Source of the DNA: Gammaproteobacteria bacterium
Lineage (GTDB): Bacteria; Pseudomonadota; Gammaproteobacteria; Steroidobacterales; Steroidobacteraceae
Length of the DNA stretch: 34,042 bases
Direction of reading: 5' to 3'
NCBI GenBank assembly: GCA_003132425.1
Contig: PKXS01000029.1
Coordinates: forward strand, 1 to 34,042
How positions within the stretch are numbered: the stretch's first letter is position 1; each line of letters begins with the position of its first letter. The position numbers were made by a program, and so were the translations under genes. The notes below the pieces were generated by a model. That model saw only the letters and a program-made list of their open reading frames with translations, was not told where the DNA came from and searched no databases. Below, piece by piece: positions 12,296-33,988 of the stretch.

Positions 12296-14827
12296 ATGCA
12301 CGGCCTTGCGCAGAGCAGAAAAGCCGCTACGGATTCGGCTTGTGCCGTGTTCGATTCCGTGGCAAGCGGCGTCGCCGTGACGCAGCCGGACGGAACCTTG
12401 GTCTTTTGCAATACGGCACTTCTCGAGCTGTGGGCGCAAAGCGCCGGGCCGGTGCTGGGCGCGTCGATTTTCACGCTGTTGGACGGCGCTGTGGACGGCA
12501 ATTTGCAGGCGCTGCACCGCGCCGTGCTGGCAACCAACTCCGAGCAGCACGCCCAAGTGCATTGCTGCGGGGGCAACTTCGTCGCCGGCGTGATTCTGCG
12601 TCGATTGGATCGACATGAGGGGCCCCTTGTCGTCTGGTCGTTTATGGATGCCCGAGGCCGCGAGCCGGTCCCCGATCTCGCCTTATGGGGTACCGGGATC
12701 GGGCTGTGGGACTGGGACATCGTGAGCGATCGAGTGACCTGGATTAATGATTGGTGCGAGCACTCGCTATTCACGGTCCATTCCGCCCATAGCCACGGAC
12801 AACTATGGTCAGCGCGCATACATCCGGAAGATATTCCGGCCCACCGGGCAGCGTTGAATCAGCATTTGGACGGTCGAGGGCCGTACCACATCGAATATCG
12901 GCTCCGCAGTCGTAACGATGACTGGGTCTGGATTCAGGAGCGGGGCAGGGTGATCGAGCGAGACTCGGCCGGCCGCGCATTGCGCATGGTGGGGCTAAGC
13001 ATCGACGTGGACGAGCGCCATCGCGCGGCGCATGCCCTCGAGCGCAGCGAGTCTCGATTCGCGCACGCCGTCTGGGGAACCAGCGTCGGCTTTTGGGACA
13101 ATGACGTCCGCACCGACGCCGTGCACTGGTGGAACGACTGGTGCGCCACCGTCGATCTGGACCCCTGCGAGGGAGCCAACCACTGGCCGCGCTGGTCCGC
13201 GGCCGTTCATCCCGATGACCTCCGGCCGTTCAGCGCACAGCACGAGGCATTGATCGAGGGCAGCGGTAAAATCTATGAAGTCGAGTACCGGATACGTACC
13301 CGCTCGGGGAATTGGCGCTGGATCTTGAGTCGCGGACGGGCAACGGCGCGCGATGATGCCGGGCGCGCCATCCGTCTTGCCGGCGTGACGATCGACATCG
13401 ATGCGCGCAAACGCATGGAGCTCGCGCTGCGCGACAGCGAAGCGCGGCTCGAAGCAGCCATGTGGGGGGCGGATCTAGGCCTATGGGACTGGAAAACCGA
13501 TGACGACTCGCTGCTATGGTTGTCCGATTGGCCGACGCGATACGGCATCGGCGCGGGGATACGCACTGTACGGCGCAAGGAGTGGCTGGCGCGAGTGCAT
13601 CCCTTGGATCGGCAAAAATACGCAGCCGATGATCACGGACTGATACACGACGGCAAGGACTCAGCCGAGAGCGATTATCGTGTTTTGTCCTCGCTCGGCG
13701 ATTGGCGCTGGGTAAATGTGCGAACCACGGTCGTTGAACGAAATGCCGCGGGCCGGGCGTTGCGAATTGTCGGCGCCTGCATCGAGGTGGACTCACGGCG
13801 ACGGGCCGAACAGCTATTGCGGACGCAAGCGATGATTTTGGAAACCATGCGCGAGGGCGTGGTGCTCCTCGATCTGCACGGGCGCATCGAATTCACGAAT
13901 CCCGCATTCGACCGCATGTTCGGCCGCACCTCCTCAGAGCTGACCGGGACTTCCGCGATCGACCTGCTGAACACCAGGCAAAAAGGCCAGTCCTCTCCGC
14001 TCGCCGTCGAGGGGTTGCTGGAGCAATTGAACCGCCGCAGCGGCAAGCGCGATATGCTGTTTCGCCGCCGTGACGGCAGCCAATTCGCGGGCGAGGTGCT
14101 ATCCGCGGATATCGAGCTGAGCGGCGAGAAGAAGATTTTGGTGGTGGTGCAAGACGTCTCGGAGCGCAAACAGCTGGAATCGGAGATTATCGAGAACGCC
14201 AACCGCGAACGCCGGCGTCTGGCCGGCGACCTGCATGATGGCCTCGGACAGGAACTAACCGGCATATCGCTCATGTTGCGCAGCCTGGTGAGGCGTGCGG
14301 GGAGCGCGCCATTGCATGCCGCTCCGGAACTCAACGAGATCATTGCCTTGGTGAATCACCTCATCGAAAGCACGCGCAAGATGGCGCTCGGCATCTCACC
14401 GGTGACGCTGCAACGCGGTGATTTATTGTCCGCCTTGGAGACTCTCGCCGGCTGGTGCCGCGACAGTTACAGCATCGATGTCCGATTGCGCCTGATCATC
14501 CGTTGGCCGATGCTCATCGACGAATCCGCCGCCACGCATCTGTATCTCATCGTGCAGGAGGCGATCAACAATGCCGTCAAGCATGGCCACGCCCGATCGG
14601 TGGTGGTGACCCTACGGACCAATAGAACTGTGGTTTATCTGTCGATTGCCGATGACGGCGTGGGCATTGCGGACCTTGCCGTGCGCGGCGACGGAATGGG
14701 GCTGAAGATCATGCAATACCGCTCCGCCATGATCGGCGGGGTCGTGCGGATAAAAAGGCTGCCGACCGGCGGCACGCGAATTCGCTGTCTCTGCCCGCGG
14801 ATCGCGTCCGGAGCGACCTTCGAGTAG
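12296..14827 (+). CDS. Soluble multi-PAS sensor histidine kinase (NarL-partner type)
   Basis: About 843 residues with no membrane segment. Five PAS-like units precede the kinase core. The first starts at FDSVASGVAVTQPDG. The next three are clear internal duplicates, each opening with GLWDWD, VGFWDND or LGLWDWK and ending in an RWxWxxxRG-type PAC strand. The fifth starts at ILETMREGVVLLDLHG. The HisKA_3 dimerisation motif is RRRLAGDLHDGLGQELTGIS, with phospho-acceptor His647, followed by a HATPase domain (VQEAINNAVKHGHA, DDGVGI, GMGLKIM). The ATG at 12296 follows AGGA; a GTG at 12281 is an alternative. It is an orphan here: no response regulator is adjacent. Its signal is probably cytoplasmic (redox or ligand). 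Confidence 0.88.
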   Translation: MHGLAQSRKAATDSACAVFDSVASGVAVTQPDGTLVFCNTALLELWAQSAGPVLGASIFTLLDGAVDGNLQALHRAVLATNSEQHAQVHCCGGNFVAGVILRRLDRHEGPLVVWSFMDARGREPVPDLALWGTGIGLWDWDIVSDRVTWINDWCEHSLFTVHSAHSHGQLWSARIHPEDIPAHRAALNQHLDGRGPYHIEYRLRSRNDDWVWIQERGRVIERDSAGRALRMVGLSIDVDERHRAAHALERSESRFAHAVWGTSVGFWDNDVRTDAVHWWNDWCATVDLDPCEGANHWPRWSAAVHPDDLRPFSAQHEALIEGSGKIYEVEYRIRTRSGNWRWILSRGRATARDDAGRAIRLAGVTIDIDARKRMELALRDSEARLEAAMWGADLGLWDWKTDDDSLLWLSDWPTRYGIGAGIRTVRRKEWLARVHPLDRQKYAADDHGLIHDGKDSAESDYRVLSSLGDWRWVNVRTTVVERNAAGRALRIVGACIEVDSRRRAEQLLRTQAMILETMREGVVLLDLHGRIEFTNPAFDRMFGRTSSELTGTSAIDLLNTRQKGQSSPLAVEGLLEQLNRRSGKRDMLFRRRDGSQFAGEVLSADIELSGEKKILVVVQDVSERKQLESEIIENANRERRRLAGDLHDGLGQELTGISLMLRSLVRRAGSAPLHAAPELNEIIALVNHLIESTRKMALGISPVTLQRGDLLSALETLAGWCRDSYSIDVRLRLIIRWPMLIDESAATHLYLIVQEAINNAVKHGHARSVVVTLRTNRTVVYLSIADDGVGIADLAVRGDGMGLKIMQYRSAMIGGVVRIKRLPTGGTRIRCLCPRIASGATFE

Positions 14828-18303: not shown

Positions 18304-19659
18304 CTAACGATCGGAGGCGCTCATCGAGGCGAGCTTTGCCTGCATTTCGGCGCCGAAGTAAGCCTGAGGGCGTGACGGAGTGTCGTGCTCTCGCCGCTCC
18401 CGCGCGGCGATGGCCGCCTTGGCCTTTTCAAAGGCGTCGCGCAGCGAGCCGGCGGCGGGCAGCGCGTCTCGGTAGAAGGCCTCCCCGAAGTAGGTCAAAT
18501 CACGATCGTTTGAACAGCCGAACGAAGTGCGATCGGCCGCCGCCGCCGTAATGACGATGGTTCGTGAATCGCTCAGGGGTTCGATGAAACCACCGGCGTA
18601 GCAAGCCGAAATGATGATGACGCGCCATTTGATTCCGGATTCGCTCAACGCGGTGACGAGATCCTCGACCGTCAGCGAGTCCTCGAGCGGCAGCTGCGAA
18701 TTGGAGATCGCGATTGCAGGATCATCCGAGCCATGCGAGGAGATGGATAGGAATAGCACATCGCGATCCAGGTGCATGCGCGACGCCACGCCGCGCAAAG
18801 CGTACTTGAGACCCGATACGGTTGCGAGCGGCGCGCCCTGCAAGTCCCGCTGATCGTTGATCAGCAACAGGCTTCTGCCGGCGATGCCGTACCGTTGACC
18901 GAGAACTCTTGAGGCCAAGCCGATCTCCTGGGCGAACACCTTCTCCTCACCGACGCCGGCAAAGCCGAGAAAGAACGCCTCGGGCTTGTTCGCGCCATCC
19001 CGATCGATGGCCGAGAGGGCCTGATCGATGCGGCCCGCTTGCGCGAACAAAATCTGCTCGCTCTGCGCCGGCGCGTTGTCGGCCGCGGCGACTTCTTCGT
19101 CGCGCGGATTCCAAACGTCGGGAACCGCATTCCAAGCATCGGTCAGCCATATGAATCCCAGGATGAACACAACGCCGGTAAGGGCCGCCGCACGCTGCGA
19201 TTCTCCGGTGATGGCGCGCAATCCGCGGGTCAAATACAAAAAAACGTATAGGGCGGTGACGATGCCTGCTCCCAAGAACCAATGGGCGCCAAGGTAGGCC
19301 GCGGCGACGGTCACGAGCAGCGATAGAATTGGAATGAGGCCCACCGCCAGCACGAGCGCCGGGCCGAACTTTGGCGTCGGAGTCGATCGCCATTGCAGCA
19401 GAGCGGCCAAACCCAGCGTCGCCAGCGCATACCAGGCAAGCAGCGGAATACCGTTTGCATAGAATTCAGGGTCCGGCTGGCTCTCCCACCGGTCGATCGC
19501 AATCCAGAGCACGAGCCATGCCGCACACATCGCGAGAGTTGCGAGAATTGGGTTGCCGCGCGGTACCGCGTTGACAGGGCAGAAAATCCATAGACGCGCC
19601 AACGCGGCAAACCAACCGCGAGGTGGATCGTCGGCGCGCGCCGGTTCGTTGTCGCTCAT
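18304..19659 (-). CDS. Membrane-anchored C13 (legumain-like) family peptidase
   Basis: 451 residues from the ATG at 19659 (MSDNEPARADDPP). Five or so transmembrane helices in the first 190 residues are followed by a soluble caspase/legumain-fold domain. The catalytic pair is visible as His309 in LFLSISSHGSDDP and Cys353 in VIIISACYAGGF. The SHG and ACYAG motifs match clan CD peptidases of family C13. Bacterial membrane members are known but poorly studied; roles in protein processing or stress have been suggested. A GTG 18 codons upstream would extend the protein. It is divergent from the gamma carbonic anhydrase, with about 115 bases between starts. Confidence 0.85.
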   Translation of the reverse strand: MSDNEPARADDPPRGWFAALARLWIFCPVNAVPRGNPILATLAMCAAWLVLWIAIDRWESQPDPEFYANGIPLLAWYALATLGLAALLQWRSTPTPKFGPALVLAVGLIPILSLLVTVAAAYLGAHWFLGAGIVTALYVFLYLTRGLRAITGESQRAAALTGVVFILGFIWLTDAWNAVPDVWNPRDEEVAAADNAPAQSEQILFAQAGRIDQALSAIDRDGANKPEAFFLGFAGVGEEKVFAQEIGLASRVLGQRYGIAGRSLLLINDQRDLQGAPLATVSGLKYALRGVASRMHLDRDVLFLSISSHGSDDPAIAISNSQLPLEDSLTVEDLVTALSESGIKWRVIIISACYAGGFIEPLSDSRTIVITAAAADRTSFGCSNDRDLTYFGEAFYRDALPAAGSLRDAFEKAKAAIAARERREHDTPSRPQAYFGAEMQAKLASMSASDR

Positions 19660-19773
19660 AGATGTGGTCAATGATAGCAGTTGGAGCGAGGCTCTCTCGG
19701 TTGCATGGACCACGCGTCCGGCCCGATGATGGCGGAGTCTGGTTGCCTAGAGACCTTGAAATGTGGAGATTCC

Positions 19774-20324: not shown

Positions 20325-20966
20325 CTATTTGATCATGTCGAACCGCAGCGCAATCCTCACCAGCTCCACGTCGCTGGAAACGCCGAGCTTCTGCTTGATC
20401 GAGGTGTGATAGTTGGCAATCGTCTTGCCGCTCAAGTTGAGGGCCTTGGCGATCTCGGCGGCGGTGAGGCCGGCCACGAGTTGCCGGAAAATCTCGAATT
20501 CACGCGAGCTCAGCAGCTTAAAGGGATCTTGCTCGCCGGCAAGCTTGTAGAGCGCCACCGAATGCGCGATGTCGGGACTCAAGAATTGCCGGCCGGCGGC
20601 CACTTCGAGCACCGCTTGCGCCAAAGTCTCGGGCGTATTGCTCTTGCTGACGTAACCGCGCGCGCCCAGACGCATGGCTCGGTCGGCAAGGGCCGCGTCC
20701 TCGTGCATGCTGAATACGATGACACGCGCGCCAGGCTCGCGCGCCAGGAGCCGGCGCATGATTTCAATTCCGCCGCTGCCGGGCATCGAAAGGTCGAGCA
20801 CCAGCACATCAGGCATGCATTGCAGATAGTTCCGATAGGTCTTTTCGGCGGTATCCGCTTCGGCAACCACTTCGATCGCCGGATACTGATCCAACAGGCG
20901 GCGAAAGCCCGATCGCACGATCGCATGATCGTCCGCCAACATCACACGCGTTCTTGGCGATGTCAT
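20325..20966 (-). CDS. NarL/LuxR-type response regulator
   Basis: 213 residues. The receiver domain has the acidic pair D12-D13 (MLADDHAIVRSG), phospho-acceptor Asp58 (VLVLDLSMPG) and Lys in YVSKSNTPE. The C-terminal LuxR-type helix-turn-helix runs through LSSREFEIFRQLVAGLTAAE and ends IANYHTSIKQKLGVSS. The ATG at 20966 overlaps the kinase stop as ATGA, showing translational coupling; an ATG at 20993 is an alternative. It is the natural partner of the upstream kinase. Divergence from xoxF suggests control of methanol oxidation, as NarL-type regulators often control PQQ alcohol dehydrogenases. Confidence 0.92.
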   Translation of the reverse strand: MTSPRTRVMLADDHAIVRSGFRRLLDQYPAIEVVAEADTAEKTYRNYLQCMPDVLVLDLSMPGSGGIEIMRRLLAREPGARVIVFSMHEDAALADRAMRLGARGYVSKSNTPETLAQAVLEVAAGRQFLSPDIAHSVALYKLAGEQDPFKLLSSREFEIFRQLVAGLTAAEIAKALNLSGKTIANYHTSIKQKLGVSSDVELVRIALRFDMIK

Positions 20967-22351
20967 GCTTGCTCTGCGTTCGGTATCGGCCATGGCAATT
21001 CCACCATGATGCGTGTTCCCTGCTGTACGACGCTCTCTATGGTAACAGCGCCGCCGAGACCTCTTATGCGTTCCCGAATACCAAGAAGCCCCAAGCCTTC
21101 GCCGGCCGCGTCCGGGTCGAAACCGACGCCATCGTCGCGCAGCGTCGCCGTCAACACGGCCGCGGCATTGGGGAGCGGCTTTCTGGACACGGTGACTTCG
21201 ATCGACACATTGCCGGCGCGCGCGTGGCGCGCGACGTTGGTCAATCCCTCCTGCACTACCCGGTAAATCGCGGTGGCGAGTTCGCCCGTCAGTTCGCCGG
21301 CCGGGGGCTCGACGCGAAGCGAACAATCCGTTTGCGGATTGCGCTGGCGAAACGCGGCTTCGAGTTCGCCCAGCGCGGCCTCGAGCCCGAGCCCGTCGAT
21401 GACGGTCGGGCGCAGGCGCTGCAGCATGCCGCGCACCATATTCTTGATGCGCGCGGTGACCTCGATGATGGCCGTCGCACTTTCGCGAATCACGGAATCG
21501 GGGGAGCCGTCGGCGCGTTGGATGGTGACCGCGTCGGCATGTATGGCGGTCACGCATTGGCCGATCTCATCGTGCAGCTCGCGCGCGATGCGCTTGCGCT
21601 CGTCCTCCTGGGTCTGAATCAGGCGATGCGTCAGGCGATGGTTTTCCGCCGTGCTGTGCTCCAGGGTGCGTACCATCCGGTTGAAGTCGCCGCTCAAGGT
21701 CGCGAGCTCCGGCAGGTCGAATGCCGGGAGGCGCGCGTCCAGTCGACCGGTAGTCAATTCATTGAGCGCAGTGCGGATATGACCGAGCGGCCGCAGCGCC
21801 CGCCCCACCGCCCACCAGACCAGGGCATTGACCATCAGGGAAAATACGATGAGCAGGCCGAGCAACCCGCGCGTCACGTTCCAGATTTCGTCGATCTCGA
21901 AAGCCGGATCCGGATGAATGACGAGAACGCCTACCGCCAGACGATCGAAGTCCACGAAGCGGCGCACGTCGGGAACGGGCTTGAACGACCGCTGCACCAG
22001 CCACCCGAACCAATTCGGCGCCTCGGGCGCGTGCTTCTGCCCGCTTGCGCTGCTATCGAGCAAGGTACCGACCGCATTGTAGAAGTACACCTCCACGTGG
22101 CGCACGTCGCTTAACTTGGCAAGCTGCAGCTGCGGCAAATGATTGCTATTGAGGCGCCAGGCGCCGCGGGCCAACGTCAATTCTGCCTCGAGATAGCGCT
22201 CGACCAACTCGGTGGCCGAGTACGCCTCTCCGCGGATGTCGTTCTGCGCCCGCGTGACGATGTAGACGCCCGCGGCGAGACAGAACAGGGCGATCAAGCA
22301 AGTGATGAGCAACATCAATCGCAGCTTCAGGCTCAGTCGCCAACGGCGCAT
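20963..22351 (-). CDS. Membrane sensor histidine kinase (HAMP, HisKA_3)
   Basis: 462 residues. A first transmembrane helix (LMLLITCLIALFCLAAGVYI) and a second (VTRGLLGLLIVFSLMVNALV) bracket a periplasmic sensor region of about 110 residues. A HAMP linker follows, then the dimerisation motif RIARELHDEIGQCVTAIHAD with phospho-acceptor His260, and a HATPase domain (VVQEGLTNVARHARA, RDDGVGFDP, GLGLLGIRERI). It is coupled to the response regulator by a 4-base overlap and is divergent from xoxF across a 556-base gap. The signal is unknown; the periplasmic domain would suit sensing of an alcohol, aldehyde or metal. Confidence 0.92.
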   Translation of the reverse strand: MRRWRLSLKLRLMLLITCLIALFCLAAGVYIVTRAQNDIRGEAYSATELVERYLEAELTLARGAWRLNSNHLPQLQLAKLSDVRHVEVYFYNAVGTLLDSSASGQKHAPEAPNWFGWLVQRSFKPVPDVRRFVDFDRLAVGVLVIHPDPAFEIDEIWNVTRGLLGLLIVFSLMVNALVWWAVGRALRPLGHIRTALNELTTGRLDARLPAFDLPELATLSGDFNRMVRTLEHSTAENHRLTHRLIQTQEDERKRIARELHDEIGQCVTAIHADAVTIQRADGSPDSVIRESATAIIEVTARIKNMVRGMLQRLRPTVIDGLGLEAALGELEAAFRQRNPQTDCSLRVEPPAGELTGELATAIYRVVQEGLTNVARHARAGNVSIEVTVSRKPLPNAAAVLTATLRDDGVGFDPDAAGEGLGLLGIRERIRGLGGAVTIESVVQQGTRIMVELPWPIPNAEQA

Positions 22352-22433: not shown

Positions 22434-22491
22434 TTGGCGTCGGTGACAATGGGCCGATCGCGAAATAAATTGCGGCGGTGCGCCTCATGAA

Positions 22492-22547
22492 CGGCGCAAT
22501 CGCAACTGCTCCACTGTCACGGCCATGGCACAGTTGCTATTGCGGCG
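22492..22547. promoter_or_regulatory. Long inverted repeat upstream of xoxF, candidate activator (enhancer) site
   Basis: The left arm CGGCGCAATCGCAACTG (22492-22508) and right arm CAGTTGCTATTGCGGCG (22531-22547) are inverted copies with two mismatches over 17 bp and a 22-bp spacer. The centre lies about 141 bp upstream of the start predicted from the sigma-54 element at 22635. That is a usual distance for a sigma-54 activator. Binding by the AcoR-type protein encoded at 27366 is inferred. Confidence 0.6.
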
Positions 22548-22634
22548 CGGCGAGACGTTTCGGTCATCGATTGTAAATAGCTGATTTGAAACCACTTCTG
22601 GCGGAAGCAGTATTTTCTTCCAAGTTTTCTCGGA

Positions 22635-22650
22635 TGGCATAGCCATTGCT
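22635..22650 (+). promoter_or_regulatory. Sigma-54 (-24/-12) promoter of xoxF
   Basis: TGGCATA-GCCA-TTGCT fits the RpoN consensus TGGCACG-N4-TTGCW, with the invariant GG and GC separated by exactly ten bases. Transcription would begin near 22661, giving a leader of about 247 bases before xoxF. The element sits in the kinase-xoxF gap, and a sigma-54 activator gene lies downstream in the same cluster. Confidence 0.65.
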
Positions 22651-22907: not shown

Positions 22908-24791
22908 ATGAAATGGCTCACAGCAAAACGTCAGGTCAAAATGTATTACGCGGTCGCAGCGCTCGTGGCGGCCAGTGGTGCAGCAATGGCCGCATCGGAT
23001 ACAGAGCAATTCCAACGCTTTGAGGATCCCAACCAGTGGGGCGCCCCGGCGGGCAATCTGAATCAGACCCGCTATAGCTCACTGAAGGAAATCAACACCA
23101 CCAACGTCAAGGGCCTGCAGATGACCTGGGCGCAATCGAGCGGCACCTTGCGCGGTCACGAAGGACAGCCGTTGGTCATCGAGAATGTCAACGGCAAGCC
23201 GATGATGTACATGGAAAGCGGTTGGCCGAACATCGTCCAAGCCCTTGATCTGACCGATCCGGACCATCCGGTGCAGGTATGGAGCTACACCAAGACCAGC
23301 GGTCGCGACGAGTCAGCGGTGCCCCGCGCCTGTTGCGATACCGTGAATCGCGGTCTGTCCTACGCGGAAGGCAAGCTGGTCTTCGGCACTTTGGACGGCT
23401 ATGTCATCGCACTGGATGCCGCGACCGGCAAGGAAGATTGGGTCGTCAAGCATGCCTATCCGGACAAAGGCGAGACCATCACGCCGGCGCCGATCATCGC
23501 CAATGACAAGGTCATCATCGGCTTCGGCGGCGACGAGTTTGCCGCGCGCGGCCGTGTCACGGCCTATAACCTTGCCGACGGCAAGAAAGTGTGGGAGTGC
23601 CACTCCACCGGCAGCGATAAGGATGTGTGCCTGACGGCGAACACCAACAAGGCTCATCCGGAATATGGAACGGCCGGCAAGGACTTGGGCATTTCCACTT
23701 TTCCTGGCGATGAGTGGAAGCGCGGCGGCGGAGCGGCGTGGGGCTGGTATGCCTACGATCCGAAGCTGCACATGGTGTACTACGGAACCGGCAACCCGGG
23801 CCTGTGGTCGCCGCAGTACCGTTGCGCCGAGCCGCTTACTCAAGCGAACTGCAACAGCGGCAAGTTCGACAACAAATGGTCGATGAGCATCTTTGCCCGC
23901 AACGTCGATACCGGCGAGGCGGAATGGGTGTATCAAATGACGCCGTTTGATCAGTGGGACTACGACGGCGTCAACGAGGTCGTGCTGGTCGACATCAACA
24001 TCGACGGCAAGATGCACAAGTGTCTGGTGCATTTCGACCGCAACGGCTTCGCCTATGTGCTCGATCGAGTGGATGGCACGCTGCTGCGCGCCCACAAGTA
24101 CGTCACGGTGAACTGGGCGGAAAAGGTCGACATGAAGACCGGCCGGCCGGTGAAGGTGCCGGAACACTCACCGCTCAAGGTGGGTGACAACACGCAGGCC
24201 TGCCCGTCCGCGATGGGCGGCAAGGACCAGCAGCCGGTGGCGGTCGATCCTAACGATGCGGCGAGCTTCTACGTGCCGACCAACAACTGGTGCATGGAAG
24301 ACGAACCGCAGGCGCGTTCGCACACGCAGCAGGGAACGGTATACGTGTTTGCCAATGTTTACATGTATCCGGAAAAGCCCGGCGTGACCGGTAAATTCAA
24401 GAAGTTCAACGTGGTGACGGGTAAGACCGAGTGGGAAATTCCCGACCCGTATCCGAACTGGGGCGGCGCGCTGGTCACGGGCGGTGGCTTGGCGTTCTAC
24501 GGCAGCCTGGGCGGGGACTTCCGCGCCGTCGATCGTGCGACGGGCAAGGTATTGTGGGAGCGCAAGCTTGGCTCAGGGATCATCGGCAACCCGATCACGT
24601 ATTCCGTGAAAGGCAAGCAGTATGTATCCGTGTGGTCCGGCATCGGCGGCTGGATCGGTCTGCCGGTGACGGCAAATCTCGATCTCAGTGATAAGTTCGG
24701 TGCGATCGGCGCCACGGCAATGGCCAAGGCTTCGGGCCTCAACCACATACCTCAAGGCGGTACGCTGTACACCTTTAGGTTGGGCGAGTAA
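22908..24791 (+). CDS. xoxF: PQQ-dependent, lanthanide-type methanol dehydrogenase
   Basis: 627 residues with a signal peptide cleaved near AMA-28. It oxidises methanol (to formaldehyde or further) in the periplasm using PQQ. The eight-bladed quinoprotein propeller is recognisable. The vicinal cysteines Cys142-Cys143 (RACCDTVNRG) would form the ring disulphide near PQQ. The decisive motif is DQWDYDGVNEV: Asp351 matches the catalytic Asp, and Asp353, two residues on, is the extra lanthanide ligand that is Ala in calcium-type MxaF. An insert with two Cys (RCAEPLTQANCNSGKFDN) precedes the active-site strand. The ribosome-binding site AGGAGGAG is well placed. Neighbours are xoxJ- and xoxG-like genes downstream, a divergent two-component pair and an intrinsic terminator after the stop. 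Confidence 0.94.
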   Translation: MKWLTAKRQVKMYYAVAALVAASGAAMAASDTEQFQRFEDPNQWGAPAGNLNQTRYSSLKEINTTNVKGLQMTWAQSSGTLRGHEGQPLVIENVNGKPMMYMESGWPNIVQALDLTDPDHPVQVWSYTKTSGRDESAVPRACCDTVNRGLSYAEGKLVFGTLDGYVIALDAATGKEDWVVKHAYPDKGETITPAPIIANDKVIIGFGGDEFAARGRVTAYNLADGKKVWECHSTGSDKDVCLTANTNKAHPEYGTAGKDLGISTFPGDEWKRGGGAAWGWYAYDPKLHMVYYGTGNPGLWSPQYRCAEPLTQANCNSGKFDNKWSMSIFARNVDTGEAEWVYQMTPFDQWDYDGVNEVVLVDINIDGKMHKCLVHFDRNGFAYVLDRVDGTLLRAHKYVTVNWAEKVDMKTGRPVKVPEHSPLKVGDNTQACPSAMGGKDQQPVAVDPNDAASFYVPTNNWCMEDEPQARSHTQQGTVYVFANVYMYPEKPGVTGKFKKFNVVTGKTEWEIPDPYPNWGGALVTGGGLAFYGSLGGDFRAVDRATGKVLWERKLGSGIIGNPITYSVKGKQYVSVWSGIGGWIGLPVTANLDLSDKFGAIGATAMAKASGLNHIPQGGTLYTFRLGE

Positions 24792-24845: not shown

Positions 24846-24930
24846 GCCGGCGCTAGGGTGCAACATGGCGCAGCGGATTTGAAACCTTCTGCCGCGACCC
24901 CGGTCTAGAAGCGTTGTGAGGAGCATGGGA

Positions 24931-26574
24931 ATGATCTACAGGCCAGCCAGCAAATTTCAGCGGATAGCGCTAGCTGCCGGCCTGTTGGCTGCCAGCGGCG
25001 CGGCGCTTGCCGGCGACCTTAGCTCGCTGACCGTCTGCGCGGATCCGGGCAACATGCCGCTGTCCAACGAAAAAGGCGAAGGATTCGAGAACAAGATTGC
25101 GCAAGTGATCGGGTCGGCCCTCGGCACGGGCGTGCATTACTACTGGCGGCCGTCGATCGAGCGCGGACTCATGCGCACGACCTTAAGCGCGGGCAACTGC
25201 GATCTGTGGATGGATATGGCCACGGACACCGAAGGCGCAGAGGTCCTAAGCCCATTGTACCGCTCCACCTTCGTACTGGCTTATCGCAACGACAAGGGCA
25301 TCGACATCAAGAGCATGGACGATCCGGCCCTGAAGAAACTTCGCGTCGGCGTGTTCCAGGTGTCGGCGATCCGCGAAGCCTTGTCCGAGCACGGCGTCGT
25401 CAGCAACACCGTGATTCATTACATCAGTCACAATGCCGACATCGTGGAGGACAATCAACCGTCCTACCAGGTTCAGCAAGTCATTGACGGTACCCTCGAT
25501 GTCGCCGCGGCGTGGGGCCCCATGGCCGGCTACTACAAGACGGTCCTGCATGCGCCATTGACCATCCAACCGGTCAATTTGATGGAAGATAAGGTTCCGA
25601 TGGAATTCGATATGGCGCTCGCCGTGCCAAAAGGGCGGCCGGACATCAAAGCGGCCGTCGAACAGGCCCTGGCGGACCACAAGGGCGAAATACGGCAAAT
25701 ACTCATCGATTTCGGCGTGCCGCTGGTCAAGTGCGGCGAATGTCTGGTCTCCGGGGACCTACCCTCGCACGGCGCGTACGCGCCTGACAAACCCGAAGTG
25801 CAAAGCGCCGCAGCGGAAGCGAAAATGCGCAGGGCCAGAATGGCCGATCTGAAGAAATGGCTGGCGCAAGGCGCCGATCCCACCGATGAGTTGAACAACG
25901 CCGTCACGGCCAACGACGTCGATCGTGTGCGCTATCTGTTGGCGCACGGAGCACAGACCAACTCGTTCGACGGCGAAGGCAACACGCCTCTGGTCAATGC
26001 CACTCGTTTCGGTTTCTTTACGGTAGCCGAGTATCTCGCCGCGCACAAAGCGGACACGAATCTTGCCGATCACAGTAGCTGGACGCCGCTGATGTATGCG
26101 GCCTGGGGCGATGACCCAAAGTTGGAAAAAATGCTGCTGGCGCACGGCGCGAGCATGCTGTCGACGAATAACGACGGCCTGACGCCGTTGGCAATCGCCG
26201 CGCAAAACGGCAAGGTCAAGGCGGCGGAAGCGTTGGTGAGCGCGGGCGCCGATGTCAATGCGCCGATTGCGAAGGGCGGTTACACGCCCTTGATGCTGGC
26301 CTCGATCTCCGGCTCCGCCGAACTTGCAACTTCGCTGATTGCGCACGGTGCAAAGGTCAACGCCACGAATCCGGGGGGCGTCACTGCGCTGATGATCGCG
26401 GCTGCCGGCAATCATGTGAGCGTGGCCGATCTATTGCTCAAATCGGGCGCGGACATCGATGCGCGCAGCGAGGACGGCCGCACGGCGCTCGCCATCGCGC
26501 AAGCCAATAACAATGACGCCGTGATCAAGCTGCTGCAGGAAGCCGCTCACCACGGCGCCGTCAAGCCGAGCTGA
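24931..26574 (+). CDS. xoxJ: XoxJ-like periplasmic binding protein fused to ankyrin repeats
   Basis: 547 residues from the ATG at 24931, chosen because GAGGAG ends seven bases upstream; GTG/ATG codons at 24916 and 24925 are in frame but too close to it. A signal peptide ends near GAALA. Residues about 28-275 form a solute-binding-protein fold of the quinoprotein-dehydrogenase-associated type (LTVCADPGNMPLSNEKGEGF, then CDLWMDMATD and KLRVGVFQVSAI), as in MxaJ/XoxJ, thought to help mature or activate the dehydrogenase. Residues about 310-545 are roughly seven ankyrin repeats (GLTPLAIAAQNGKVKAAEAL and similar). Ordinary XoxJ proteins are about 270-300 residues, so the ankyrin tail is an addition. 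It lies between xoxF and a cytochrome gene. Confidence 0.88.
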   Translation: MIYRPASKFQRIALAAGLLAASGAALAGDLSSLTVCADPGNMPLSNEKGEGFENKIAQVIGSALGTGVHYYWRPSIERGLMRTTLSAGNCDLWMDMATDTEGAEVLSPLYRSTFVLAYRNDKGIDIKSMDDPALKKLRVGVFQVSAIREALSEHGVVSNTVIHYISHNADIVEDNQPSYQVQQVIDGTLDVAAAWGPMAGYYKTVLHAPLTIQPVNLMEDKVPMEFDMALAVPKGRPDIKAAVEQALADHKGEIRQILIDFGVPLVKCGECLVSGDLPSHGAYAPDKPEVQSAAAEAKMRRARMADLKKWLAQGADPTDELNNAVTANDVDRVRYLLAHGAQTNSFDGEGNTPLVNATRFGFFTVAEYLAAHKADTNLADHSSWTPLMYAAWGDDPKLEKMLLAHGASMLSTNNDGLTPLAIAAQNGKVKAAEALVSAGADVNAPIAKGGYTPLMLASISGSAELATSLIAHGAKVNATNPGGVTALMIAAAGNHVSVADLLLKSGADIDARSEDGRTALAIAQANNNDAVIKLLQEAAHHGAVKPS

Positions 26575-26631: not shown

Positions 26632-27174
26632 GTGCTAAGACGAGTGTCAGCCGTCAGTGTCATCGCGTCCATTGCAGTACTAGCGGCGGTCGGTACCTTC
26701 GGCAGGGTTTGGGCCGGTGGGGACGCGGCGCCGGTCGATTACACCAAGATCTCGCCGGTAGACCTGGTGAAGAACACTCCCAAGGGAAAACTGGTCAATC
26801 CGTACAAGGACACTCAAGCCGACATCGTGGCGCAAGGCGGCAAACTATTGGCGAGCTACTCGTGCAGCGGCTGCCACGGCGGCACCGGCGGCGGCGGCAT
26901 GTGCCCACCGCTGACCAACGACACCTGGGTGTACGGCGGCGACGATGACACGCTGTTCCGGCTCGTGACGCTCGGCAGCGATGAGCTGCAAAAGCAGGGC
27001 TACACCCGCATAGGCCACGAAAACGTGGTCGGTCCGATGCCGCCCTTTGGCGGCATCATCAAGAACGCCGACGATCTTTGGAAAATATTTGCCTTTGTCC
27101 GGGCCAACTATCACGGCGATCCGGCCTATAAATTTGGAGCTCCGCCGCCTCCCCCCGAACCCGCCAACCCGTAA
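26632..27174 (+). CDS. xoxG: XoxG-like cytochrome c
   Basis: 180 residues with a signal peptide ending near RVWA. There is one heme-binding site, C78-SG-C81-H82, and a likely axial Met136 in VVGPMPPFGG. The fold and the 'GGDDDTLFRLVTLGSDELQ' stretch (quoted in part) suit cytochromes that accept electrons from methanol dehydrogenase. The C-terminus is a Pro-rich tail (PPPPPEPANP). A GTG start follows AAGGAGA at a good distance. It follows xoxF-xoxJ on the same strand (57 bases behind xoxJ), so the physiological electron acceptor of XoxF is the best assignment. Another small periplasmic cytochrome role cannot be excluded. Confidence 0.82.
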   Translation: MLRRVSAVSVIASIAVLAAVGTFGRVWAGGDAAPVDYTKISPVDLVKNTPKGKLVNPYKDTQADIVAQGGKLLASYSCSGCHGGTGGGGMCPPLTNDTWVYGGDDDTLFRLVTLGSDELQKQGYTRIGHENVVGPMPPFGGIIKNADDLWKIFAFVRANYHGDPAYKFGAPPPPPEPANP

Positions 27175-27212
27175 GGGCCTATCTGTCTCATTATTGGTAC
27201 ACAAACTGAAAA

Positions 27213-27232: not shown

Positions 27233-27365
27233 CGATCATCGCAAAAGGACCAGGCTTTGTGTGGGTTGGCCAGACGCAGCGGGAGTCCCGACATCGTCGG
27301 TTATGCGCAACGTCTGAGCATCGGCGAAACAAGAATAGATGCCTCGAGCCGTTGAGGGGGACGTT

Positions 27366-29354
27366 ATGTCGAACGAGAATCTCGCGACCAGCCACGCGTC
27401 CCGCATCCTTAGCGTCGTACAGAGTGGATTCCAGCCCGCCGGAATCGAGCCCCATGTCACGCGCTCCTGGCACCGCTGCGTGCGCGAATATGGCATCGAG
27501 CCGTCGGCGCCGCGCCAAATCGCCATCCTGAATCCGCTATCCCTGAAGGAATTGCAACAGCGCATGGGCGAGCTGCTGCCGGTGGCACGCGCGGAAATGG
27601 AGAGCCTGTATGAGCAGATAGCGGGCTCCGGCTTCGCGGTGATCTTGTCGGATACTCAGGGCGCCGTGCTCAGCACGATTACCGATCCGTCATTGCAACG
27701 CGAGTTCCGTCAGGCCGGGTTGTCGCTCGGCGCCCTGTGGGACGAACGTCACGAAGGGACCAACGGCATCGGTACCTGTCTTGCGGAAGGCGGTCCGGTG
27801 ACGGTGCATCGCGAGGAGCATTTCCGCGGGTACAACTTGTCGTTGTCCTGTTCCGCGGCGCCGATTCTCGATCCGCACGGGGTCATGATGGGAGTGCTCG
27901 ATGCATCCACCGTAAAATCGAGCGATAGCCGGCTGATCCAGCGCCACACGATGGCGCTCGTCAACATGTCGGCCAATCTGATCGCGCGCTGGAATTTTCT
28001 GAACCAATACGAGCAGTCCTGGATCTTGCGTTTTCACAGCCGGCCGGAATTCGTCGGATTGCTGCACGAGGCGCTGGTTGCCGTCGATGGCTCCGGCAAT
28101 ATATTGGCGGTCAACGAGAGCGCGCTTCTGCAGCTTGGCTGTTCGACCCGGAAAATGTTGATCGGCCAATCGATCGAGAGGTTCTTCCAATTCGACTTTG
28201 GAACATTGGATCAGCGCGCCAAATTTGAACCCAGCGCGATCTGGCCGGTGCGCGATCTCGCTCACGGCAGACGATTCTTCGCCGTGGTGCGCGCTCCGCT
28301 GCGCAACGCCGTGCGAGCTCTCGCATTGGCGACGCCGGATCATAGCCGCGACAAGATCGACGCGGCGCCGCACGAACGCGGGCAGCAGCACGTCGTCGAG
28401 GACGCGCAGATGCGCAAGAACCTGGCGGCCGGCCGGCAGCTATTTGCGAAGCAGGTGCCGATCTTACTGCAAGGCGCGACCGGCACCGGCAAGGAAGCCT
28501 TCGCGAAGGCATTGCATCGAGGCGGGTTGTGGTTCGACAAGCCGTTCGTCACGGTCAATTGCGCGGCAATTCCGGAGAGCCTGATCGAGAGCGAGTTGTT
28601 CGGCTATACGCGCGGCGCCTTCACCGGCGCCGTGAAGGAAGGCCGGGTCGGCAAGATCCTTCAATCCAACGGCGGCACGTTGTTCCTCGACGAGATCGGC
28701 GACATGCCGTTGATGCTGCAGACGAGGCTGCTGCGCGTGATCGAGGAACGAGAGGTCGTGCCGCTCGGCAGCGATCAGGCCATTCCGGTCAATTTGCACG
28801 TGATCAGCGCCACGCATCGCGACATTCATCAGATGATTCAAAGCGGCGAATTTCGCGAGGATCTTTACTACCGCTTGAACGGCATCACGCTGCAATTGCC
28901 GCTATTGCGCGATCGCGGCGATAGGGCTGAATTGATTCGCACTCTGCTGCAGGAGGAGAACTGCGGCCAGGATAGCGCGGAGATCGCCGAAGACGCATTC
29001 CGCAAGCTCTTGGACTATTCCTGGCCCGGCAATATTCGCCAATTGCGCAATGCCTTGCGGACCGCGGCGGCGCTGTGCCGCGACGGCATCATCCGGCTGT
29101 CGAATCTACCGCAGGAGATTCTCGACACCGAGAGCCGCGCATTGCCGCCGACAACGGCCGCGGGGACGCCGGAGACATCTCCGGTCACGGCGAGTTTGCC
29201 CTCTGCGGCGCTGCGTGAAGCGGAGTGCGCCGCGCTGCTGCGGGAGCTCGAGCGCATGCGCTGGAATATCAGCCGCACCGCGCAGGCATTGGGCATCAGC
29301 CGCAATACTCTTTATCGCAAGATTCACAAGCACCGAATCGTTCTGGAGCACTGA
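27366..29354 (+). CDS. Sigma-54-dependent transcriptional activator, AcoR family
   Basis: 662 residues from the ATG at 27366 (GAGGGG upstream). The N-terminal part is a GAF-type sensor region (VTRSWHRCVREYGIEP, then GTNGIGTCLAEGGPVTVHRE, a usual AcoR signature), followed by a PAS-like segment around 225-300. The AAA+ domain has Walker A GATGTGK (370-376), the sigma-54 contact loop GAFTGA (417-422), Walker B TLFLDEIGD and an arginine-finger region. A Fis-type helix-turn-helix closes the protein (ISRTAQALGISRNTLYRKIH). It should activate RpoN promoters; -24/-12 matches lie upstream of xoxF, frmA and the porin, so it is the likely regulator of this C1 cluster. The inducer may be an alcohol or aldehyde. 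Confidence 0.93.
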   Translation: MSNENLATSHASRILSVVQSGFQPAGIEPHVTRSWHRCVREYGIEPSAPRQIAILNPLSLKELQQRMGELLPVARAEMESLYEQIAGSGFAVILSDTQGAVLSTITDPSLQREFRQAGLSLGALWDERHEGTNGIGTCLAEGGPVTVHREEHFRGYNLSLSCSAAPILDPHGVMMGVLDASTVKSSDSRLIQRHTMALVNMSANLIARWNFLNQYEQSWILRFHSRPEFVGLLHEALVAVDGSGNILAVNESALLQLGCSTRKMLIGQSIERFFQFDFGTLDQRAKFEPSAIWPVRDLAHGRRFFAVVRAPLRNAVRALALATPDHSRDKIDAAPHERGQQHVVEDAQMRKNLAAGRQLFAKQVPILLQGATGTGKEAFAKALHRGGLWFDKPFVTVNCAAIPESLIESELFGYTRGAFTGAVKEGRVGKILQSNGGTLFLDEIGDMPLMLQTRLLRVIEEREVVPLGSDQAIPVNLHVISATHRDIHQMIQSGEFREDLYYRLNGITLQLPLLRDRGDRAELIRTLLQEENCGQDSAEIAEDAFRKLLDYSWPGNIRQLRNALRTAAALCRDGIIRLSNLPQEILDTESRALPPTTAAGTPETSPVTASLPSAALREAECAALLRELERMRWNISRTAQALGISRNTLYRKIHKHRIVLEH

Positions 29355-30095: not shown

Positions 30096-31217
<1,122 letters not shown>

Positions 31218-31274: not shown

Positions 31275-31291
31275 AAGCAGCTTGCGTGCCA
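31275..31291 (-). promoter_or_regulatory. Sigma-54 (-24/-12) promoter of frmA-gfa
   Basis: The reverse strand reads TGGCACG-CAAG-CTGC-TT. The -24 box is a perfect match, the -12 box has C for the first T, and the invariant GG and GC are ten bases apart. Transcription would start near 31266, about 61 bases before the frmA ATG. Confidence 0.7.
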
Positions 31292-31386
31292 GCCGGCACC
31301 AAGCGGCAATAATGCTGGCCGATCAGATACTTGCACGCCAAAACAGCATACCTGCGTAGGTAGGTTGCGCATGGTGTTTCTGAACC

Positions 31387-31414
31387 GCTACAGTTTGTGC
31401 CACAGAACTGTAGC
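31387..31414. promoter_or_regulatory. Perfect 9-bp-arm palindrome, candidate activator site for frmA
   Basis: GCTACAGTT (31387-31395), a 10-base spacer TGTGCCACAG, then AACTGTAGC (31406-31414). The centre is about 135 bp upstream of the start predicted for the sigma-54 promoter at 31275-31291. It also lies 17 bases past the fghA stop, but no T-run follows, so an enhancer is favoured over a terminator. It shares CAGTT with the xoxF dyad. Confidence 0.6.
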
Positions 31415-31424
31415 AGCGCGGGCG

Positions 31425-31436
31425 GCCTGATCAGGC
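31425..31436. repeat. Perfect 12-bp palindrome GCCTGATCAGGC at the fghA stop
   Basis: It is self-complementary and includes the stop codon of fghA. No function is evident. It may add to a 3'-end structure with the nearby 31387-31414 palindrome. Confidence 0.45.
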
Positions 31437-32276
31437 ATGCAGAGCTGCCGCGTGATGGCGTAGATGATCTTCCATGAAGGTACTGATGAAGTAATAACTG
31501 TGGTCGTAGCCTGCTTGCAGGCGCAGCCTTAGTGCCTGCCCGGACTCGCGGCAGGCGGCTTCAAAGAGCTGAGGACGCAGCTGCTCGGCTAAGAATTTGT
31601 CCCCTTCGCCTTGATCGATGAGGATGGTGCCGGGCAAACGGCGACGCTTTACCAAGACGCAGGCGTCGTAGTCTTCCCAGGTTGCACGGTCTTCGCCTAG
31701 GAATCGGGAAAACGCCTTGCGTCCCCACGGCACTTGCGACGGCGCCACGATGGGCGCAAAGGCGGACACCGAACAATAGCGATCAGGGTTCTTCAGCGCG
31801 ATCGTCAATGCACCGTGGCCGCCCATCGAATGCCCGAAGATGCTCTGTCGGCTGATCTCGATCGGGAAGTGCGCGGCGACGATCTCCGGCAACTCGCGGC
31901 TAACATAGCTATACATGTTGAAGAAGCGCGACCACGGCGCCTGAGTGGCGTCCAGATAGAAACCCGCCGCAGTGCCGGCTTCCCAATCCGCCGCTTCATC
32001 GGGAATACCTGTATTGCGCGGACTGGTGTCGGGTGCCACCAGGATCAGACCCAGTTCCGACGCGAGCCGTTGCGCGCCGGCCTTGACGGTAAAATTCTCT
32101 TCGCTGCACGTAAGCCCCGCCAGGAAGTACAACGCGGGTACCCGGCCGCTTCGCGCTTGTGGCGGCCTATAAACCGCGAACCGCATCGGGCCGGCGCAGA
32201 CCGCCGACGTGTGGCGATAGAAGCCCTGCACGCCACCGAAACTGGAATGCTCGGAAATGGTTTCGATGGGAGTCAT
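31431..32276 (-). CDS. fghA: S-formylglutathione hydrolase
   Basis: 281 residues from the ATG at 32276 (MTPIETISEHSSFGGVQGF), the usual FghA N-terminus; the longer frame to 32405 is not supported. It splits S-formylglutathione into formate and glutathione. The alpha/beta-hydrolase nucleophile is Ser150 in FGHSMGGHGA. The likely acid is in IDQGEGDKFL and the His in GYDHSYYFISTF. LAGLTCSEENF near residue 53 is also typical. It shares orientation with frmA and gfa but is separated from frmA by 225 bases that contain frmA's own sigma-54 promoter. Confidence 0.95.
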   Translation of the reverse strand: MTPIETISEHSSFGGVQGFYRHTSAVCAGPMRFAVYRPPQARSGRVPALYFLAGLTCSEENFTVKAGAQRLASELGLILVAPDTSPRNTGIPDEAADWEAGTAAGFYLDATQAPWSRFFNMYSYVSRELPEIVAAHFPIEISRQSIFGHSMGGHGALTIALKNPDRYCSVSAFAPIVAPSQVPWGRKAFSRFLGEDRATWEDYDACVLVKRRRLPGTILIDQGEGDKFLAEQLRPQLFEAACRESGQALRLRLQAGYDHSYYFISTFMEDHLRHHAAALHA

Positions 32277-32607
32277 GCTTGCGATTCCAAATTGCAACGC
32301 GCCGGGGCAGCAGTTTAGCCCAGCCGCCGCGCACCCGCGCCAGCGCGTTCGCAACGCTGCGCCGCATCGGTGTGTTCCCTGCAACAGCTGTATCTGAATC
32401 AACACAGAGTGCGACAGATCTGATTCTACGGCGTGACACAGGAATACTCATGACCGCACACCGGAGGCCAATCAGTTTGCTTGCGCGCAACACAATGACC
32501 GGCGAACGCCAATTACGCTCGACTAACGACGTGAGCCTGTGAATCCTTTGCTACAAAGCGCAAGAGCATGCGCAGTTTGCGCCGCCGTCGACCCTCGGTT
32601 GCGTATT

Positions 32608-32623
32608 TGGTACGCCTCTTGCA
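32608..32623 (+). promoter_or_regulatory. Sigma-54 (-24/-12) promoter of the porin gene
   Basis: TGGTACG-CCTC-TTGCA matches the RpoN consensus except T for C in TGGC, with correct ten-base spacing. A start near 32634 gives a 92-base leader. The 449-base fghA-porin gap (32277-32725) also holds CAGTTTGC at 32473-32480 and 32573-32580, and TTGCGCGCAA at 32481-32490. I see no gene in it. Confidence 0.6.
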
Positions 32624-32725: not shown

Positions 32726-33988
32726 ATGAAAACGAGTACCAAGCTTGTGGTCGCGCTGAGTGCCGCGCTGTGGCTCGTTCCGATGACCAGAGCGGTCGCC
32801 GGAATCGATGTCACCGCCGGCGATTGGAAATTGGATTTCTCCGGAAACGTGAATGGGTTCTATGTGGGGGCCAGCTGCGATACTCCGAGCTCCACCACGG
32901 GCGTAACCGGCGGTCTCGCTTGCGCCGGTGATAATTCGACATCGGTTCGCAACGGTTTGCTGCCCGCGGCTCTGGTGTTCAGCGCTACGACGCGGCAGGA
33001 CGATTTCGATATCGATGTGACCATCGGATTCTATCCCGGCATCAATAGCTCGGCAGCGGGCCAAGTCAACTTGGGTGGCGGCAGTCCAACCGCTTTGGCG
33101 ACACCGGGCATCGATGCGCGCCAGGCGTTCTTTACCTTCGGTGATGCCAGCTGGGGGACGGTGAAAATTGGCCGCGACATCGGTCTATTCGCCAAGGACG
33201 CGATTCTCGACGATATGACCTTGCTGGGAATGGGCACTGCTTCGGGCAATCAGGCACCGAGTAACACCAGCCTCGGCCGTATCGGGCTGGGCTACATCTA
33301 TACGGATTGGGAACCGCAGATCACGTATACGACACCTAGTTTCAGCGGGTTCGCCGCATCGGCCGGTGTCTTCCAGCCGCTCGACGAATTTAATCAAGAT
33401 AACCCGCTGGATTATTCGAAGCACACCTCGCCGCAGTTCCAAGCGGGGGTCAGCTACAGTTTTGGTGATCCGAAGAGCGACGCCTTGACCGGCAAGGTCT
33501 GGGTGGACGTCGTCACTCAGCAATACCAACTTCCCTCCGGAACCTATCCGACTGGATTATCGACAAGCAACGACGGCACCGCGGTCGACGGAGGGGTGAA
33601 ACTGGACGTCGCTGGATTCGAGGCTGTGCTATACGGATATACCGGCAAGGGAGTCGGAACGACGGGTCTTTACCTGGATGCGCTATCGGCCGGGGGCGAC
33701 ACGCGCAAATCCGACGGTGGCTACGTCCAAGCTACGTATAAATTCGACAAGCTCAAAGTCGGCTTGAGCTATGGTATATCCGATCTGAAGCTCGCCGATG
33801 ATGAACAAGCGACCGAGAACACCAGCACCCTGCTCAAGCGCAATGCTTCGGGCGTTGTCGGCGTGTACTACAGTCTCACGAAGAGCGTGACCTTGGTCGG
33901 CGAGTACATCGACACGAAGGCCACGGCGTGGGGCGGCGACGAGGCGAGGGAAAGGGACTACGCCCTGGGCGGGATCCTGTTTTTCTGA
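32726..33988 (+). CDS. Outer-membrane porin
   Basis: 420 residues with a signal peptide cleaved near AVA-25. The mature protein starts GIDVTAGDWKLDFSGNVNGF and is rich in alternating amphipathic strands (FFTFGDASWGTVKIGRDIGL, VGLSYGISDLKLADD, VTLVGEYIDTKA). It ends in Phe-Phe, the usual signal for beta-barrel assembly. This arrangement is that of Gram-negative trimeric general porins. A GAAAGGGGG stretch precedes the ATG. It lies next to the formaldehyde-oxidation genes, divergent from fghA, under a sigma-54-type promoter. A role in taking up a C1 substrate, metal or co-substrate is possible but not shown. Confidence 0.85.
   Translation: MKTSTKLVVALSAALWLVPMTRAVAGIDVTAGDWKLDFSGNVNGFYVGASCDTPSSTTGVTGGLACAGDNSTSVRNGLLPAALVFSATTRQDDFDIDVTIGFYPGINSSAAGQVNLGGGSPTALATPGIDARQAFFTFGDASWGTVKIGRDIGLFAKDAILDDMTLLGMGTASGNQAPSNTSLGRIGLGYIYTDWEPQITYTTPSFSGFAASAGVFQPLDEFNQDNPLDYSKHTSPQFQAGVSYSFGDPKSDALTGKVWVDVVTQQYQLPSGTYPTGLSTSNDGTAVDGGVKLDVAGFEAVLYGYTGKGVGTTGLYLDALSAGGDTRKSDGGYVQATYKFDKLKVGLSYGISDLKLADDEQATENTSTLLKRNASGVVGVYYSLTKSVTLVGEYIDTKATAWGGDEARERDYALGGILFF

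Follow-up and report, generated by a model that had tools for sequence, protein, structure and literature searches.

A GAF/AAA+/Fis-type activator encoded between xoxF and frmA is proposed to co-activate these two genes and a porin gene by IHF-assisted DNA looping, as a new regulon that would work by a known mechanism; on the sequence evidence set out below this reading is given a probability of about 0.83. The region upstream of xoxF, the gene for a lanthanide-type methanol dehydrogenase, would be a sigma-54 enhancer, and frmA would have a matched one. Each predicted enhancer comprises two tandem palindromic operators, a strong proximal copy and a variant distal copy, followed by an IHF-like bending site and then by the -24/-12 promoter. 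Dimers of the activator (27339-29354) most likely bind the operators and would assemble into an ATPase ring that, on IHF-looped DNA, opens sigma-54 polymerase at xoxF (in a presumed operon with xoxJ and xoxG), at frmA and at the porin gene. The trigger would be a signal received by the sensor domain, with methanol, formaldehyde or another C1 compound of that kind as the probable candidates, and the activator probably also controls its own gene. What the sequences themselves show is the elements, with their conservation, spacing and occurrence together with the activator.

Genes of the cluster

The window, the whole stretch of 34,042 nucleotides that was analysed (G000:C42:1-34042), belongs to a genome of 4.08 Mb, assembled in 146 contigs with a completeness of 96.6% and a contamination of 5.7%. 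The genes that concern the proposed regulon are:

20325-22351, minus strand: histidine kinase and LuxR-type response regulator, directly upstream of xoxF
22908..24791, plus strand: xoxF, lanthanide-type methanol dehydrogenase (TIGR03075, above cut-off)
24916-26574: MoxJ/XoxJ-like protein with C-terminal ankyrin repeats
26632-27174: cytochrome c
27339..29354, plus strand: sigma-54 activator (GAF, AAA+ with GAFTGA, Fis-type HTH)
30096..31205, minus strand: frmA, S-(hydroxymethyl)glutathione dehydrogenase (TIGR02818, 727.5 bits, above cut-off)
31431-32276, minus strand: fghA
32726..33988, plus strand: porin (Porin_4)

XoxF-type methanol dehydrogenases carry an extra Asp two residues past the catalytic Asp, and this residue was found in the window XoxF (WDYDG). 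The best solved-structure match of the protein was 7o6z, which we take to be the XoxF1-type enzyme of Methylacidimicrobium, and its WDYDG aligned with the WDYDG of both 7o6z and 4mae, the Asp being kept. The abstract of PMC8546591 opens with an XoxF1-type enzyme of that genus. The XoxJ/MoxJ-like periplasmic binding protein (24916-26574) has a long C-terminal ankyrin-repeat region, through which the relatives' cluster matches extend. A minus-strand reading frame at 18304-19713 gave a weak caspase-type match (NF047832, E 1.4e-4) that lay far under the cut-off.

The activator has the features of an AAA+ protein of its class, keeping Walker A, Walker B, the GAFTGA loop and a C-terminal Fis-type HTH. 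A PAS match fell slightly under its cut-off, and an ATG at 27366 is a possible start instead of 27339. The N terminus matched the solved DhaR fragment 4lrx weakly (residues 34-262, E 4e-7), a match that names no ligand.

Promoters and operators of xoxF and frmA

Three sigma-54 elements were located:

22635..22650, plus strand: xoxF -24/-12 element TGGCATAGCCATTGCT
31276..31291, minus strand: frmA -24/-12 element TGGCACGCAAGCTGCT, the best match of the window
32608..32623, plus strand: porin sigma-54 element TGGTACGCCTCTTGCA

They are the three best -24/-12 matches (GG and GC at the standard spacing) of the whole window, in the order frmA, porin and xoxF, and they are conserved. An element scoring at least 22.0 was present in all 10 porin promoters examined; the porins of L034 and L035 show just 40-41% identity. 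Among 33 frmA upstream regions, a comparison that left out the partial frmA of L077, the 11 from the cluster scored 22.5 and the other 22 never scored above 20.5. The rpoN gene was found in 20/20 genomes searched, over the cut-off in 19 and split in G011; L052 was absent from this search.

The original prediction placed matched enhancer-like dyads about 135-140 bp upstream of xoxF and frmA. An inverted repeat exists at xoxF (arms 22492-22508 and 22531-22547, 15/17 pairs), as does a perfect 9-bp dyad, GCTACAGTT/AACTGTAGC, at frmA (31387-31395 and 31406-31414), and their centres lie as claimed, at about -141 and -136 from predicted starts that were set 26 nt beyond the first T in the -24 box. 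The chance of such dyads was estimated from order-1 Markov shuffles of the window (n=80). A 17-bp dyad with at most two mismatches and a gap of at most 30 occurs once in the window versus 0.2 expected, and 15% of the 80 shuffles contained at least one; perfect 9-bp dyads with a gap of at most 12 occur nine times versus 2.9 expected, at least nine being reached in 2.5% of shuffles. Looser settings gave 11 versus 5.8 expected (9-bp dyads, gap of at most 20) and 1 versus 0.55 (14-bp dyads, at most one mismatch). By these shuffle counts, the window contains somewhat more short dyads than expected, and taken alone neither of the two dyads is exceptional; what stands out is the promoter context.

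Orthologous clusters were collected with the activator as query, and the DNA upstream of the -24/-12 elements was aligned. The conserved signal was an 18-bp palindrome, TGTNNC-N6-GNNACA, that overlaps both dyads, and each promoter has a weaker copy upstream. These operators, and the IHF-like sites that accompany them, are:

22481..22498: xoxF distal operator CGCCTC-atgaac-GGCGCA, 34 bp farther upstream than the proximal copy
22515..22532: xoxF proximal operator TGTCAC-ggccat-GGCACA
22574..22586, minus strand: xoxF IHF-like site WATCARNNNNTTR, 9 of 9
31321..31333, plus strand: frmA IHF-like site, 8 of 9
31375..31392, minus strand: frmA proximal operator TGTAGC-ggttca-GAAACA
31398..31415, minus strand: frmA distal operator TGCTAC-agttct-GTGGCA, 23 bp from the proximal copy

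The xoxF proximal operator was present, at -120..-123 relative to the sigma-54 element, in 9/11 promoters of genomes with an intact-GAFTGA activator orthologue (8/8 positions in eight of them, 7/8 in L092), and also in L040 and L041. It was missing at about -120 in L089 and L036 despite an intact activator, 7-of-8 matches being found elsewhere (-98 and -178, respectively). The distal copy, CGCNTC-N6-GGCGCA, matched at 10-11 of 11 positions in 8/12 xoxF promoters scanned. At frmA, all eight defining positions of the proximal operator were kept in 11/11 cluster promoters, at -100..-102, and the distal TGCNNC-N6-GNNGCA was found at -123..-125 in 10 of the 11 and at -135 in the other; the distance between the two copies is 21-23 bp in 10 promoters and 34 bp in L055. 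Mean pairwise identity over the eight defining columns was 1.00 at frmA (11 promoters) and 0.97 at xoxF (nine promoters, chosen for having the site) against 0.27-0.41 for the flanks, the operator being scored on the same alignments from which it was defined. With cross-trained matrices, the frmA proximal site ranked 24th in the window (xoxF-trained) and the xoxF site 35th (frmA-trained); these weak ranks indicate that the common part is the TGT..C..G..ACA skeleton and that the two sites differ elsewhere. The sequence TGTCACGGCCATGGCA at 22515, which scored 19.0 as a weak sigma-54 match, was rejected as a promoter, being the operator itself.

It could be that the predicted dyads (the 17-bp arms at xoxF and GCTACAGTT/AACTGTAGC at frmA) are themselves the binding sites, as they are present where they were said to be and overlap the conserved operators. 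However, the outer arms at xoxF, which pair at 13/14 core positions in the window, pair at just 2-8/14 in eight relatives, and dyads of this quality are not rare by chance. The perfect palindrome at frmA joins the left halves of two adjacent operators, the distal and the proximal. The CAGTT/AACTG said to be common to the two dyads does occur in both, but in opposite directions at xoxF and frmA. The axes also differ: at xoxF the conserved operator is centred on 22523.5 and the dyad on 22519.5, 4 bp apart, and at frmA the positions are 31383.5 and 31400.5. Given the poor conservation and the unexceptional chance frequency, the dyads were ruled out as operators, and it is highly improbable that they are what the regulator binds. 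Their absence from close relatives that keep the cluster had been named as grounds for refutation; the literal xoxF dyad was indeed missing there, the overlapping operator was not. The original prediction is partly supported: it was right that a shared control element should exist, and a common upstream element at similar distances from the sigma-54 promoters was found, but it was wrong on which palindromes form it, as neither the dyads it named, nor their axes, nor its element at 32573 before the porin gene held up.

The IHF-like site lies downstream of the proximal operator, between operator and promoter, in the same orientation at xoxF and frmA. The IHF consensus, WATCARNNNNTTR, is as cited in an excerpt of PMC8899819. 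At xoxF the site (8-9 of 9) was found at -61..-63 in 9/12 promoters, exactly those with the operator, the best match in the other three (L089, L036 and L086) being 6 of 9; at frmA it was found at -41..-43 (8 of 9) in 11/11. Operator and IHF-like site stand 59-60 bp apart in the xoxF promoters and 59-61 bp apart in those of frmA, and the two are together displaced by about 20 bp, or about two helical turns, relative to the -24 box between the two promoters. Matches of at least 8 of 9 number 24 in the window on both strands, and the chance of a given 3-bp offset and strand is about 0.001. A gene of the himA family or type was found above the cut-off in 2/4 genomes tested, G000 included.

Candidate operators at the porin and activator genes

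Further candidate operators were located before the porin gene and before the activator gene:

27184..27201: operator upstream of the activator gene, TGTCTC-attatt-GGTACA
32389..32406: first porin operator TGTATC-tgaatc-AACACA, matching seven of the eight defining positions
32410..32427: second porin operator TGCGAC-agatct-GATTCT, 21 bp from the first

Each ranked second of 34,021 window positions with a single matrix, trained on frmA proximal sites only for the first porin site, on frmA distal sites only for the second and on xoxF sites only for the activator site. Cognates of the first porin operator were found in L031, L033, L037, L038, L044 and L050, and also in L032, where the sequence ends before any porin; those of the second were found in L037 and L038. 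The two sites stand 219 and 198 bp before the -24 box in the window and 120-124 and 99-103 bp before it in L037/L038, and no IHF-like match at the porin gene exceeded 7 of 9. The porin-region element of the original prediction, CAGTTTGCGCC, is present at 32573-32583, but it is not kept in the porin alignment and was rejected as an operator in favour of the candidates at 32389-32427. Upstream of the activator gene, sites scoring at least 13 were found in 10/29 orthologues (L048 not among them) versus 3/1277 same-size control windows, a comparison in which the orthologues are related and the binomial value overstates the case; the other 19/29 had no site reaching 13.

The xoxF and frmA proximal, activator and first porin sites share the 12-bp spacer of the TGT-N10-12-ACA class, and the distal copies vary. 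Conserved palindromic sites about 80-220 bp upstream, as found here, are a feature of sigma-54 enhancer promoters. Activation of such promoters depends on sigma-54 and ATP hydrolysis, and an IHF site or an intrinsic bend between enhancer and promoter is frequent in them though not obligatory.

Specificity and likely identity of the regulator

In the window's own genome (4.08 Mb) there are 34 exact operator matches and 29 sigma-54 matches, and the two come within 250 bp of each other only at xoxF and frmA; 0.011 coincidences would be expected at distances of 80-125 bp. This count used the exact pattern, which the porin and distal sites do not fit and which places them outside it. A genome-wide regulon defined by the operator alone was rejected, the 34 matches being equalled by 34 in the reversed control. 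A scan of the window for operator and sigma-54 pairs, with 0.2 expected per window, turned up a single weak pair, which lies within a reading frame at 14220 and was taken as chance; the porin pair was not listed because its site lies slightly past the 220-bp limit.

Among 196 relatives, the frmA-type combination of operator and promoter gave 13 matches, 11 of them at cluster frmA genes (reversed control, 1), and the xoxF-type combination gave 14, of which eight were at xoxF, all in genomes with the activator (control, 0). Within the 23 genomes of the genus, the frmA-type combination was found in 11/11 with the activator (at least 77% identity) and 0/12 without it, and the xoxF-type combination in 8/11 and 0/12, respectively; the genomes are related and these counts are not independent. 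Records in two collections were counted once (for example, L034 = G003:C57). The three xoxF-type misses comprise a 7-of-8 site in G004 (L092), a promoter without that site in G014 (L089), and G008, in which just a 44% xoxF relative was found. In G004, G014 and G017, xoxF and the activator are on different contigs. The operator matrix, trained on the same 11 cluster frmA cases, scored these at 18.8-25.4 and 36/37 control upstream regions at 7.3 or less; the one exception, at 16.2, was from G026, whose best activator relative is 46% identical. This co-occurrence argues for the activator encoded between xoxF and frmA as the likely reader of the operators, as originally proposed.

An alternative is that some other regulator reads the TGT-N12-ACA operators, either another enhancer-binding protein, the genome having seven matches to the activator at E of 0.001 or less (the activator itself included), or the histidine kinase/LuxR-type pair, whose genes adjoin xoxF. 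This is unlikely. The combination tracks this particular activator, operators recur next to the activator gene in distant orthologues, and a counterpart of the kinase/regulator pair was found only in L036 (E 1e-20) among the nine loci of relatives in which more than 5 kb precedes xoxF. The case of G010 (L086/L129) also bears against it. There, xoxF is 90% identical and has a sigma-54 element, and the best activator relative, on the same contig, is 45% identical; the xoxF promoter has no operator at -120 and no IHF-like site, with a 7-of-8 match at -166, and it is possible that an operator swap took place. For paralogous activators (42-49%), no common operator was established, though there is the 16.2 match before the frmA homologue of G026 and a porin pair in L132.

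The combination of operator and sigma-54 element was also seen in three genomes of another genus of the family, L132 (G120), G062 and G140. In L132 it lies between a porin that resembles, by eye, the one in the window and a gene for a 392-aa sigma-54 activator that has no N-terminal sensor region.

The similarity could in principle be inherited or chance sequence that has no regulatory role, given that the genomes are related and that, across the genome, the bare 18-bp pattern occurs no more often than its reversed control. However, the flanks have diverged and the operator, IHF-like and sigma-54 columns have not, the operator-to-IHF spacing is matched in two promoters, and operators are retained in Rudaea and a near relative. 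This explanation is considered extremely improbable, and control by the GAF/AAA+/Fis activator remains the preferred reading.

Loss of sigma-54 features in Rudaea and a near relative

Three loci, L041 (R. cellulosilytica DSM 22992), L042 (Rudaea sp.) and L040 (a proteobacterial MAG that is among the first relatives listed for the L041 genome), encode activators that are 66-71% identical to that of the window and keep the recognition helix. L040 has intact Walker motifs, and those of L041 (GATGSGKE) and L042 (GATGTGKQ, GGTLFLDD) show slight changes. The GAFTGA loop is altered to GKFANT in L040 and GAFPGA in L041 and is partly deleted in L042; the loop comparison left out L037 (broken frame; one internal stop in G008), and L035 ends inside the HTH. 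In these loci, no -24/-12 match of 18.5 or more was found in the 600 bp before xoxF (2/2) or frmA (3/3), and the sole match of at least 21.5 in the whole of the three loci was at L041:173, far from the cluster. All three thus combine a lost GAFTGA with targets that have no -24/-12 element, as in sigma-70-type enhancer-binding proteins, and rpoN is present in their genomes. Both xoxF operators are kept in L040 and L041, 35 bp apart, and operators are kept before the activator gene and before fghA in all three. As for sigma-70 promoters, just a TAGAAT box downstream of the fghA operator was noted, by eye. L036, which is labelled Rudaea sp., has an intact GAFTGA and keeps -24/-12 elements at xoxF and frmA.

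Loss of the contact loop and of the -24/-12 elements, with the operators retained, suggests a switch away from sigma-54 in Rudaea and its near relative. One interpretation of these sequences, to which we give an even chance, is that a single orthologous regulon changed its sigma factor, operating through sigma-54 and an IHF loop in the window's genus, while the same DNA sites would serve sigma-70 promoters in Rudaea and the near relative.

Activator orthologues at 59-65% identity have GAFTDA in 13/14 loci (L043, L045-L049, L052, L157, L158 and L160-L163; L156, a repeat of L043, was left out) and GAFTGA in L159. The equivalent change in NorR (G266D) is described in an excerpt of PMC2941729 as giving a constitutively active protein that bypasses sensor control and is still sigma-54-competent. 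The loci L157, L160 and L047 have an operator and, with it, a weak sigma-54-like element, both directed away from the activator gene; in two of them (L157 and L160) the direction is towards a small gene, presumably SRPBCC-like.

Discussion

Much of how XoxF-type methanol dehydrogenases are turned on still awaits explanation, and a hypothesis at the level of individual bases is offered here for a lineage of uncultured bacteria. According to this hypothesis, one activator would couple the oxidation of methanol, the removal of the resulting formaldehyde and a porin. The tandem operators and the fixed operator-to-IHF spacing, moved as a unit by about two helical turns, would offer a clean model of an enhancer. 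With the Rudaea orthologues, that of R. cellulosilytica DSM 22992 (L041) among them, the question of a change from sigma-54 to sigma-70 becomes testable in a cultured organism. If true, the change would be a natural promoter-by-promoter record of an enhancer-dependent circuit becoming ordinary, on a rare-earth methanol pathway.

Among the papers listed from the open-access literature, covered mostly as titles and the first lines of abstracts, no description of sigma-54 control of xoxF together with frmA was found. According to an excerpt of PMC11845868, XoxF regulation still needs more study and is expected to be species-specific. In a figure legend, the same paper labels a GAF/sigma-54 regulator on its map of the mxa and xox clusters. 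The likeness to the window is a sigma-54 regulator gene mapped with mxa/xox clusters, and the excerpt gives no promoter, operator or regulon; because it already names such a gene, the neighbourhood of these regulators and xoxF is not new.

The anatomy proposed here is the standard one of enhancer-dependent promoters and its operators fall in a published TGT-N12-ACA class, and the system is therefore regarded as a new regulon of a known kind. TGT-N10-12-ACA operators are described, in the part of PMC6615313 consulted, for Fis-type enhancer-binding proteins (NifA, FhlA, and AdhR, AorR, BldR and others of Clostridiales). In common with that class are the TGT...ACA ends, the 12-bp spacer, the position upstream of a sigma-54 promoter and the activator gene nearby; alcohol-related targets in some groups are a further likeness. 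The differences are the setting in Gammaproteobacteria, the extra C..G inside the palindrome and the targets xoxF, frmA and porin.

By its description in an excerpt of PMC8899819, the BmoR/PBMO system of Thauera butanivorans is also similar, with an alcohol-related oxidation, a sigma-54 activator, an upstream inverted repeat and proposed IHF looping. It differs in having its UAS 193 bp upstream of the -24/-12 boxes and a monooxygenase as its target. The same excerpt reports that, in E. coli, the BmoR promoter still worked without the inverted repeat, which counts against the operator model put forward here.

Enhancer-binding proteins that lack GAFTGA and act at sigma-70 promoters are described in an excerpt of PMC10274813 (NtrC of R. 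capsulatus and Caulobacter, and VspR). Like these proteins, the activators of L040, L041 and L042 have lost the sigma-54 contact loop and kept the DNA-binding domain. Unlike them, intact and altered orthologues here share one type of operator at the same genes, and the step can be compared promoter by promoter.
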